DNA of 64,000 nucleotides from Streptomonospora alba. GTDB lineage: Bacteria > Actinomycetota > Actinomycetes > Streptosporangiales > Streptosporangiaceae. The stretch lies in contig NZ_JROO01000010.1 of NCBI RefSeq assembly GCF_000826685.1, positions 62,001 to 126,000 on the forward strand, given 5' to 3'. The notes under the pieces were generated by a model. It was not told the origin of the DNA. It searched no databases and was given only the letters and a program-made list of their open reading frames with translations. Shown here in pieces: positions 38,917-53,151 of the stretch (position 1 is the first letter of the stretch; every line of letters begins with the position of its first letter). Made by a program: the position numbers and the translations under genes.

Positions 38917-40635
38917 TCAGACTCGGTTCTCCACGGGCCGAGGGGCGGGCCCCGCCGCTGCCCGGGCGCTGCGGGGGGAGCCGTGGACGTGTACGACGCG
39001 TTCGAAACGGGCGAGCGTCTCGGTGCGATGCGAGGCGGCGAGTACGGTGCCGTCGAACTCGGCGATGACGTCGGAGACGATGCGCTCGGTCTCCGGGTCG
39101 AGGCTCGCGGTGATTTCGTCCACCAGCAGCACGCGCGGTCGCCGGATGAGCGCACGGGCCAGGCACAGGCGTGCCTGCTGCCCGCCGGAGAGGCGGAGGC
39201 CGCCTTCTCCCAACTCCTCGTCGAGATCGGCCCAGCCCTTGGCGCCGACGTGTTCGAGCACGGCGGACAGTTCCGTGTCGGGGCGCGGCCGGGTCCCGCG
39301 CAGGAGGTTGGCGCGGACGGTGCCGTGGAACAGCCGGGCGTCCTGCTCGACCAGGGCCACGGCGTCGCGGAACGCCTCGTCGTCGAGTCCGGTGACCGGG
39401 ACGGTGGTGCCGTCGGCGGCGACGATCTCGACGGTCCCCGCCGACGGGTCCCACAGGCGGGCCGCGAGCGCGATGATCGTGCTCTTGCCCGCCCCGGAGG
39501 GCCCGGCGAGGCCGACGTGCTCACCGGGTGCCACGTCGGCCGACCACCCCTCCAGCGTCGGCCGCCGGTCGTCGTAGGCGAACGAGACCCCACGGAACCG
39601 GAGGCCGAGAGGACCGCTGGGGACCTCTTGCGGCCGGTCGGGCGCGGATACGACCGGCGGGCGGGTGATACCGGAACCGACGCGCCGCGCGCTCGCGGTG
39701 AGGGGATGGAGCTGGGTCAGCACCGCGGTGGCCTCGGTGACGGCCGTGACGCCCGCGAGGGCGAGGGCCACGAGCGCGGGGAGGACCGCCGGGGACAGGC
39801 GCGCGTCGGCGGGGCCGGAGAGGACGCCCGCGGCGGCGGCGCTGACGGCGATGACCCCGATCACCACGGCGGTGACGATCAGCTCGCGCACCCCGGCGGT
39901 CAGCTGGGAGAGCAGTTCCCGCCGTCGGGTGACCGCGGCCGCCCGCGCGGTGGCCGCGGCGGTCTCGGAGACGATCCGCGGCGCGAGGCCGTAGCCGAGC
40001 ACCTCGCGCAGGGCGCCGAGCGCGTCGACGGTCCGTGCCGAGAGCTCCTCGCGGTCCTGCTGCTCCCGCTCGCCGGTCCGCCTGGCGGCCCCGGCCCAGC
40101 ACAGCGCGGTCCCCGCCACCAGAGCGCTGCCGAGCGACATCACCAGCGCAGCCTCGGGCAGCAGGAGCAGGGCGGCGGCGAAGGAGGCGAGGAAGACGGT
40201 CAGCGAGGCGCCCACCTGGGCCACGGTGTGGGCGTAGAAGAACTCGAGCTTCTCGATGTCGCCCATCGCGACGGCCGCCGCGCGCCCGGAATGCTCGCGG
40301 CGGCGTGCGGGAACGCTGCGTGCATAGGCGTCGAAGAGCGCCATCCGCAGGCGGGCCAGCACACGGTAGGCCAGGGCGTGGGACACGTCCATCTCCCGCC
40401 AGGTCAACAGGGTCCGCAGTAGTACGAGCCCGACGGCGGCAGCCCACCAGAGCGGTCCGGGCGGTGTCCGCTCGACGATCGCGTGGCCGACCGCCCAGGC
40501 CGTCAGCACCGCCAGACCGGCGAGGCCCAGGGCGCTCGCGGTCGCGACGAGATAGCCGGCGAGCATGCCGCGCCATTCGGGGCGCAGCGCGGGCAGGAGC
40601 CGGCCGAAGGCGCGCAGCGCTGCACGGGTACTCAC
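38917..40635 (-). CDS. ABC exporter subunit with fused ATPase (CydC-like), TOMM cluster
   Basis: A 572-residue half-transporter: six membrane helices in the first about 310 residues (GMLAGYLVATASALGLAGLAVL onward) and a C-terminal ATPase with Walker A GPSGAGKST, signature LSGGQQARLCLARAL and Walker B VLLVDEITASLD. GTG 40635 overlaps the preceding stop (GTGA, 40632-40635). It should pair with the next gene as a heterodimer. CydC-like resemblance is of fold only; in this setting export of the modified peptide is more likely than of thiols. Confidence 0.87.
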   Translation of the reverse strand: MSTRAALRAFGRLLPALRPEWRGMLAGYLVATASALGLAGLAVLTAWAVGHAIVERTPPGPLWWAAAVGLVLLRTLLTWREMDVSHALAYRVLARLRMALFDAYARSVPARRREHSGRAAAVAMGDIEKLEFFYAHTVAQVGASLTVFLASFAAALLLLPEAALVMSLGSALVAGTALCWAGAARRTGEREQQDREELSARTVDALGALREVLGYGLAPRIVSETAAATARAAAVTRRRELLSQLTAGVRELIVTAVVIGVIAVSAAAAGVLSGPADARLSPAVLPALVALALAGVTAVTEATAVLTQLHPLTASARRVGSGITRPPVVSAPDRPQEVPSGPLGLRFRGVSFAYDDRRPTLEGWSADVAPGEHVGLAGPSGAGKSTIIALAARLWDPSAGTVEIVAADGTTVPVTGLDDEAFRDAVALVEQDARLFHGTVRANLLRGTRPRPDTELSAVLEHVGAKGWADLDEELGEGGLRLSGGQQARLCLARALIRRPRVLLVDEITASLDPETERIVSDVIAEFDGTVLAASHRTETLARFERVVHVHGSPRSARAAAGPAPRPVENRV

Positions 40636-52111: not shown

Positions 52112-53151
52112 ACCGCCGTCCCGCCCGAACGCGTCCGCGCGCCACGACGCGTACCCGCACGCTCCCCTCCACTCTCGCCGCGCTGAGCGCGATCCCCCTC
52201 GCCTTGACAGCTTGTGGAACCGGTGTCACCTCCGATCCCTCGAACCCCCAGGGGCCGGAGGAGACCGTGGAAGTCACGAACTGCGGACGGAAGCTCACCT
52301 TCGACACCACTCCGGAGAACGTCGTGGGAATGATGCCGTCCCAGACCGAGATGCTCATCCGACTCGGTCTCCAGGACTCCCTCGCCGGCCAGGCACAGAC
52401 CGATGTCTCAACACTGCCCGAGGACATCGCTGAAAAGGCCGCGGACGTCCCCGTCCTCAGCACGGACGCACCGCCGGCGCGCGAAGACCTCCTCGCCACC
52501 GCCCCCGACCTCGTGGTTTCGCCGACGGAGTACGAGTTCACCGCGGAGCAGGGCTTCGCGAGCATCGACCAGCTCAAGGAGAACGGCGCCCAGGCCTATG
52601 TGGCGACCGGCGGCTGCGCCGACCGCCGCAACACCGCGGAGGTCACCGACGTCCTGACCGACATCACCGGCCTCGGCGCGATCATGCGCGTCCCGGAGGA
52701 GGCCGAGGAGCTGTCGGCAGAGGCCGAGGACCGGCTGTCGGCCGTCGACGATGCGATCGAGGGCTCGCAGCGCCCGAGCGTCGCCCAGGTCTATGTCGAG
52801 GGCGAGTCGCTCTCGGCGATCGGCGCCGGCGTGGAAGCGGACATCATCAAGCGGGCCGGCGGCGACAACGTCTTCGACCCGGAGGCACCCGAGTTCGCGG
52901 AGTTCTTCGCGGCCGAGATCAACCCCGAAGAGATCATCAGCCGCAACCCCGAGGCGATCGTCTTCGGTGTCTCGGGACCGGCCCAGGAGGAGGAGACCCG
53001 GGAATACCTCCACAGCACCTTCCCCGACGTCGCCGCCGTCGAGAACGATGTGCTCATCGCCGTATCCCAGGCCGACCTGCACCCCGGCACCCTCGGCAAC
53101 ATCGACGCCGTCGAGACCATCGCCGAGGAACTCCACCCCGGCGCGTTCTGA
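52108..53151 (+). CDS. FecB/FepB-type metallophore-binding lipoprotein
   Basis: A 347-residue periplasmic-binding-protein class III lipoprotein. A basic n-region and hydrophobic core end in the lipobox LALTACGTG. Binding-fold segments VVGMMPSQTEMLIRLGLQDS, LVVSPTEYEFTAEQGFASID and PEAIVFGVSGPAQEEE are typical of siderophore/cobalamin binders rather than of ZnuA-type bare-metal binders, and there is no His-rich loop. It should capture a metal chelate outside the cell; by context this may be the TOMM product. AGGAAGG precedes the ATG. Confidence 0.92.
   Translation: MNRRPARTRPRATTRTRTLPSTLAALSAIPLALTACGTGVTSDPSNPQGPEETVEVTNCGRKLTFDTTPENVVGMMPSQTEMLIRLGLQDSLAGQAQTDVSTLPEDIAEKAADVPVLSTDAPPAREDLLATAPDLVVSPTEYEFTAEQGFASIDQLKENGAQAYVATGGCADRRNTAEVTDVLTDITGLGAIMRVPEEAEELSAEAEDRLSAVDDAIEGSQRPSVAQVYVEGESLSAIGAGVEADIIKRAGGDNVFDPEAPEFAEFFAAEINPEEIISRNPEAIVFGVSGPAQEEETREYLHSTFPDVAAVENDVLIAVSQADLHPGTLGNIDAVETIAEELHPGAF

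Follow-up and report, generated by a model that had tools for sequence, protein, structure and literature searches.

Why should a gene cluster for a modified ribosomal peptide be joined to an importer of the chelate-uptake class, and when would the cell need the product? The question is raised by a locus of Streptomonospora alba, an actinobacterium whose GC-rich genome spans 5.9 Mb over 110 contigs, in which a peptide operon and an importer operon diverge from a shared region within the stretch analysed here (64,000 nucleotides of contig NZ_JROO01000010.1, termed the window). An initial annotation, made from the sequence alone, had described the locus as an azole peptide cluster whose product is exported and re-imported as a metal carrier. 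The results presented below indicate that the cluster, judged by sequence, is almost certainly controlled by the zinc uptake regulator, Zur, and that it is most likely, with a probability of roughly 60%, a zinc-starvation system in which a ribosomal zincophore is made, exported and re-imported. Judged from its genes, the cluster is a streptamidine-family (ami) system for a ribosomally synthesised and post-translationally modified peptide (RiPP), and hence of a family already known; the family, its importer and the metal hypothesis are all present in Russell et al. 2021 (PMC8442711), and in these respects the locus is not new. The new part appears to be the zinc-starvation control, which is strong, conserved and not in print within the literature searched. 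Zur is not mentioned in the available portions of PMC8442711, and no report linking the Zur regulon or a zincophore with YcaO RiPPs was found in a search that had most subscription journals and bioRxiv preprints outside its scope. Zincophore, RiPP and Zur occurred together only for a cyanobacterial zinc system in the literature searched.

A Zur-type box lies between the divergent operons

The region separating the two operons is 107 bp long and contains the box TGATAACGGTTTTCA. This site is the best match in 64 kb to the published 21-bp znuA motif, scoring 12/15 with the next site at 10, and for TGANAAYSRTTNTCA only ~0.4 matches at no more than two mismatches would be expected in the window by chance. 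A Zur box is found at the promoter, as expected of a member of the Zur regulon; from the strict S. coelicolor motif it departs at more than one base. An alignment of 18 precursor promoters selected out of 81 shows the box as the main conserved block, and it is probably placed between the -35 and -10 elements; a scan of positions 46800-47200 for a sigma-70 consensus, which is uninformative or weak, returned no site. Iron control was considered and rejected, as no IdeR-type iron box is present in the window within three mismatches and the motif is common to zinc genes.

The box is conserved among relatives

Conservation was followed in the best 80 of 199 relatives from a precursor-alignment scan, a sample comprising 24 named genera and one Microbacteriaceae. 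Of the 80, 78 have a box scoring at least 13/15 no more than 200 bp before the precursor, compared with a background of 11/1600 dinucleotide shuffles and 9/1513 random windows from the same loci, the 15-bp consensus behind the count having been fixed only after the sites were inspected. The two relatives under the threshold, Jiangella and one Streptomyces, reach 12. Used as published, the 15-bp motif gives 61/80 relatives a score of 10 or 11 of 11 vs 16/1505 background windows, and the published 21-bp motif gives scores of 9 to 14 of 15. A second set was obtained with the streptamidine profile in the GTDB family of the window, where 18 of 200 genomes, the own genome included, are positive; all 18 carry a box of 14 or 15, a set only partly independent, as six of them were already among the 80. 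Chance origin of the box was rejected on the counts in relatives against shuffles and background, on the expectation for the window and on the ranking by the 21-bp motif. In a phylum sample the precursor is present in 3/296 genomes, indicating that the cluster is patchy. The four other YcaO loci of the own genome, each 3-4 kb, have best sites of 10-12/15.

The genome encodes a Zur homologue, and zinc genes share the motif

Two FUR-family genes are present in the genome of Streptomonospora alba. One overlaps a znuB-type gene and has as its closest chains 3mwm (E 1.9e-48), which we take to be the Zur of S. coelicolor, and 2o03 (E 2.1e-39), which is FurB, a zinc uptake regulator; the second has a peroxide regulator as its nearest match (E 8.2e-11). 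A pattern based on the site detects eight places in the same genome at no more than two mismatches and none when reversed, its zero mismatches at the window's own site, on which it was modelled, carrying no weight. These places are the ami box itself, a divergent znuB-like/ATPase pair, a Pfam-confirmed znuA, an ArsP-type permease, a methyltransferase and three without a clear link. A Zur homologue is encoded and the box is held in common with zinc genes, as in a Zur regulon.

In eight other genomes, TGANAATSATTNTCA at no more than one mismatch occurs at 28 places, of which 7 are ami sites, 12 precede zinc-homeostasis genes, 2 belong to other Fec-type importers and 7 to others; the reversed control gave none in seven genomes and one place in G296. 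The zinc-homeostasis genes, mostly recognised by eye save for those scanned with Pfam, comprise znuA, znuB, zur with cobW, cobW, the zinc-free L28/L33 ribosomal-protein paralogues, an AztD-like protein and a heavy-metal ATPase. The motif precedes zinc genes in the own genome and in seven of the eight others, with the ami site alone found in Leucobacter. Zur-type boxes before both operons suggest that the likely metal is zinc.

Boxes of this type were also observed at genes outside the cluster. In the own genome one, at 1 mismatch, stands directly before a class I methyltransferase gene (Methyltransf_25; L007:1501-2359, C20:12080), perhaps a further zinc-starvation gene. Boxes recognised by eye stand before a second, different FecB-type binding protein in Glycomyces (L024:18225) and Xylanimonas (L130:2542), possibly part of another zinc-chelate importer, and near two peptide/Opp-like binding-protein genes of S. 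coeruleorubidus (L126:2574, L127:2564). Inspection by eye also placed cobW-like or znuB-like genes with Zur-type boxes adjoining ami clusters (L037:19717, L054:6407, L077:49).

The importer is linked to the precursor and carries the box when relocated

That both operons serve one molecule had been supposed in the initial annotation, with co-occurrence of the precursor family and the importer named as a check. Both operons carry Zur-type boxes, and in 76 of 80 relatives importer and precursor are no more than ~12 kb apart, which upholds the supposition that they serve one system. Three of the four relatives with no importer nearby (L048, L056, L058) are cut by contig ends, and in Arthrobacter sp. 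UM1 (L063) an ami-type importer is present on another contig with its own box of 13.

Three arrangements were observed. The operons are divergent in arrangement I, as in the window. In arrangement II (Streptomyces, Streptosporangium), amiA is directly preceded by a different Fec importer, one with two permease genes, and the gene for a 404-amino-acid protein, first in the importer operon of the window, diverges from that importer; boxes occur at both starts, the second, scored in the 29 loci long enough to include it, reaching 10 or 11/11 in 28 and 9 in one. Arrangement III (Cryobacterium, Paenarthrobacter, Mycetocola, Streptomyces specialis and others) has the importer on the other strand, ~10-12 kb past amiA, with a box of at least 13 just before fecCD in 9/9. 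As a control, 30 FecCD loci were scored, spanning ~1.5 kb per side so that a more distant promoter would be missed; no box of at least 13 was found in the 22 that are not of ami type. Of the eight ami-type loci, six have the box; L138 is truncated at a contig end, and L148, that of the window itself, lies inside its operon. A quick FecCD tree of 81 rows, which carries a long-branch warning, groups the type I and III importers (support 99) and separates type II (support 96). Because of these separate groups, the tree is suggestive, but only suggestive, of a Fec importer having been joined to a streptamidine-type RiPP more than once.

Zur-type boxes also occur in the motif-B branch

The motif-B model, NF040715, matches four of 28 genomes in the Rhodococcus genus of L062 and none of 396 phylum genomes. 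The motif-B loci contain two YcaO genes, a Fec importer and cores such as NALQGVGTNALVDNPF. When the published 21-bp motif was run over these 20-kb loci, the two best sites scored 13/15 (next 10) and lay at the precursor and the importer in 4/4; the four loci are close relatives and nearly one case, and should the longest reading be correct, the site at the precursor may extend into the first codons. Zur control seems, from these sites, to extend beyond the His-bearing core.

Genes of the locus and comparison with streptamidine

The gene content and order of the initial annotation were borne out by coordinates and by Pfam and NCBIfam matches (Table 1), as were the overlaps in the rightward operon, where the four joints overlap by 1, 4, 4 and 4 nt. 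The genes it listed are real; missing from it were the 404-amino-acid reading frame that opens the right operon, the S15/CocE hydrolase that is joined with YcaO in one frame, and the Zur-type box. The precursor belongs to the streptamidine family, matching NF040714 at 66.4 bits vs a cut-off of 40 (E 1.6e-18), and is 97 percent identical to that of Nocardiopsis halophila, the nearest named relative found. Also present are amiB, hydrolase, YcaO, dehydrogenase, two genes for an ATP-binding cassette (ABC) exporter and the Fec importer, the content of a streptamidine cluster, amiB being recognised by place and tblastn and the dehydrogenase by a weak match. The AmiB-like protein, whose streptamidine counterpart is the cyclodehydratase partner, had been called a leader-binding protein; the gene is present at a conserved position, while the name finds no Pfam or NCBIfam match. 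The dehydrogenase is SagB-like, as described, with its score under the family cut-off.

Table 1. Positions in the window of the ami genes and of the Zur-type box.
Feature	Position	Strand	Basis
amiT2-like ABC exporter half, CydC-like	38917..40635	-	ABC_membrane + ABC_tran
amiT1-like ABC exporter half, CydD-like	40632..42302	-	ABC_membrane + ABC_tran
amiE-like flavin dehydrogenase	42299..43450	-	SagB model 30.1 bits, under cut-off 78.4
amiC-type hydrolase + amiD-type YcaO, single 821-amino-acid open reading frame	43464..45929	-	Peptidase_S15, YcaO (Pfam)
amiB-like protein	45926..46795	-	same position and tblastn matches in relatives
amiA-type precursor, 39 amino acids, predicted core HLSASH, MDNQELAVNEEIVAEIEETEQLAHLSASHSNALVENPFD	46893..47012	-	NF040714
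Zur-type box TGATAACGGTTTTCA between divergent operons	47086..47100	.	0 mismatches to TGANAAYSRTTNTCA; top 21-bp Zur-motif site
404-amino-acid protein, first gene of importer operon	47120..48334	+	no family match; tblastn match in 73/80 relatives
S9 prolyl-oligopeptidase-like peptidase	48334..50124	+	Peptidase_S9 E 3.4e-28
FecCD-type permease	50121..51287	+	FecCD E 6.9e-94
Importer ABC ATPase, FepC-like	51284..52111	+	ABC_tran E 1.1e-31
FecB-type binding lipoprotein	52108..53151	+	Peripla_BP_2 E 5.3e-18; TIGR03868 under cut-off

Like the streptamidine cluster of Streptomyces albidoflavus J1074 (MIBiG BGC0002115), the locus combines a precursor of this family, amiB-E, amiT1/T2 and a FecBCDE-type importer, and the 404-amino-acid protein, equated by position, probably corresponds to amiX. 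The window core is HLSASH as compared with HLSATH, the core from which streptamidine, an amidine hexapeptide, was isolated (PMC8442711). In the window the importer operon is divergent and includes a single permease gene as well as an S9 peptidase, whereas the related Streptomyces loci examined have two permease genes upstream of amiA. In contrast to the streptamidine cluster, hydrolase and YcaO form one open reading frame in the window, an organisation shared by 4 of 74 relatives scored, with separate genes in the other 70. More than 90 clusters with FecBCDE genes beside amiA-E and amiT1/T2 were described by Russell et al., who counted 237 precursors in 57 genera and called the biological role unknown (PMC8442711). 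As the bait of that survey was standalone YcaO proteins (PMC8442711), hydrolase-YcaO fusions may have fallen outside it. AmiB-E are required for streptamidine, and the dehydrogenase is essential although streptamidine shows no oxidation (PMC8442711).

Core residues H1, S3 and H6 are kept in 88 of 88 core copies (80 loci), a count in which searching with HSNALVEN partly imposes H6 and the residues downstream of it. Position 2 varies among L, D, A, H and E, position 4 carries A in 87/88, and position 5 is occupied by S or T. The pattern H-x-S-A-S/T-H is likewise retained in the precursor copies found by profile, of which three have NALVANPF and one NALVESPF. The serines of the core had been taken for future oxazoles, a view that streptamidine does not bear out: its Ser3 and Thr5 remain unmodified, and it contains an amidine and no azole (PMC8442711). 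The locus resembles those of linear azol(in)e peptides (SagBCD/TOMM, thiazole/oxazole-modified microcins) in its YcaO and SagB-like enzymes, leader peptide and ABC export, and differs in that its core is not rich in Ser, Thr or Cys. The SagD and SagB models both stay under their family cut-offs, SagD at 188.9 bits against 219.25. With the family product carrying an amidine, the azole/TOMM label is doubtful.

For the 404-amino-acid protein, no Pfam or NCBIfam match and no relative among solved structures was found (best E 0.68). Kinship with the zinc chaperone AztD was ruled out by an hhalign probability of 2.1 percent, and a beta-propeller fold, an initial guess, obtained no support. The S9 peptidase is matched in 47/80 relatives and in none with the Streptomyces arrangement, and cannot be a general part of the system as it is absent from Streptomyces-type loci.

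Role of the product

Zinc-starvation-type control, a dedicated exporter and a chelate-class importer are combined in this locus, as would be expected of a zincophore system judged by sequence alone, and metal import was itself proposed for the streptamidine family (PMC8442711). When zinc is replete, Zn-Zur on the box between the two starts would silence both operons, the sequence evidence for such control being strong. As zinc falls, the precursor would be made, and AmiB together with AmiC-AmiD would convert it, by cyclisation and trimming, into a short H-x-S-A-S/T-H product, a chemistry known from streptamidine. AmiT1/T2 would export this product, and the FecB/FecCD/ATPase importer would return the peptide or its zinc complex. 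Opening of the peptide inside the cell may fall to the S9 peptidase, the weakest step because this enzyme is lacking in the Streptomyces arrangement.

Several observations weigh against the zincophore reading. Zinc chelation by the product is presumed, and the published tests on the isolated hexapeptide were negative, purified streptamidine having bound no Fe, Co, Cu, Mg, Mn, Ni or Zn (PMC8442711). An amiD mutant was without phenotype under metal starvation, deletion of the importer abolished production, which is unexpected for a plain importer, and streptamidine was produced in quantity in the cultures used (PMC8442711). The box of the window stands more than one mismatch from the strict S. 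coelicolor motif. Motif-B cores lack the conserved His pair, one repeat having a single His further upstream, yet boxes and importer are kept, and Zur control beyond the His-bearing core weakens the case for the two His as ligands. The published negative tests may be off target if a phenotype is hidden by znuABC, or if degradation gave rise to the hexapeptide, which is an argument and not evidence. More tentatively, and at slightly less than even odds, the whole streptamidine superfamily, motifs A and B, could be a ribosomal zincophore system across many actinobacterial genera, with Fec importers joined at least twice, the isolated hexapeptide being a breakdown form of a true carrier that keeps a dehydrogenase-made ring.

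The alternative that survives best, although we regard it as unlikely, is that the operons are under Zur and the peptide is no chelator, serving instead as a signal or weapon of zinc starvation, with the importer taking other cargo, such as a foreign zincophore, or recovering spent peptide. The Zur-box evidence is identical for this alternative, which also accommodates the failure of streptamidine to bind metal (PMC8442711) and the motif-B core without its His pair, and the joining of two importer types to the same RiPP would make the importer replaceable. The linkage of importer and precursor in 76/80 loci and the chelate class of the binding protein argue against it, as does the finding of no antibacterial or antifungal activity for streptamidine (PMC8442711).

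It is improbable that the metal carried by the product is not zinc but, for instance, cobalt, copper or iron, with synthesis in zinc starvation being only one element of a wider metal response. Iron chelates or cobalamin are the usual cargo of Fec-type importers, the weaker model matches here are of these importer kinds, and metal selectivity cannot be revealed by sequence. Zur control and the lack of an IdeR-type box speak for zinc, and the binding tests with streptamidine were negative for Fe, Co, Cu, Mg, Mn and Ni as well (PMC8442711). An azole-type toxin or antibiotic cluster standing by chance beside an unrelated importer is rejected as very improbable, since the YcaO, SagB-like dehydrogenase and ABC exporter do resemble azole bacteriocin clusters but the SagD/SagB cut-offs are unmet, the linkage is lasting, boxes are shared or duplicated, relocated importers keep the ami-type box, and streptamidine has neither azole nor activity (PMC8442711).

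The zincophore reading has partial precedents. Methanobactin, a copper RiPP, is likewise a ribosomal peptide that fetches a metal, and differs from the system of the window in its enzymes, metal and regulator. Coelibactin and other non-ribosomal zincophores of Streptomyces, named in PMC3430247 and PMC5472717, share with the window Zur control, a peptide-type product and uptake genes, but are made by non-ribosomal peptide synthetases whereas the product here is ribosomal. If the peptide carries zinc, it would be the ribosomal counterpart of such zincophores. The near-universal zinc-starvation box among the loci examined tells when the cell wants the molecule, so that the question of its role can be reopened under zinc depletion.

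A neighbouring peptidase gene and variant precursor loci

A second S9-type peptidase gene, at 56753-58924 of the window and ~3.6 kb past the importer, shows no sign of belonging to the cluster. One genome, G139, has three copies of the precursor region (L016, L017, L018); two carry a box of 14, and none is present in the third, which ends with its contig and in which the precursor and the gene for the 404-amino-acid protein have been brought together. Two tandem core copies within one precursor were observed at L024, L026, L031, L032, L033, L035, L042 and L046, mostly in Nocardiopsis.

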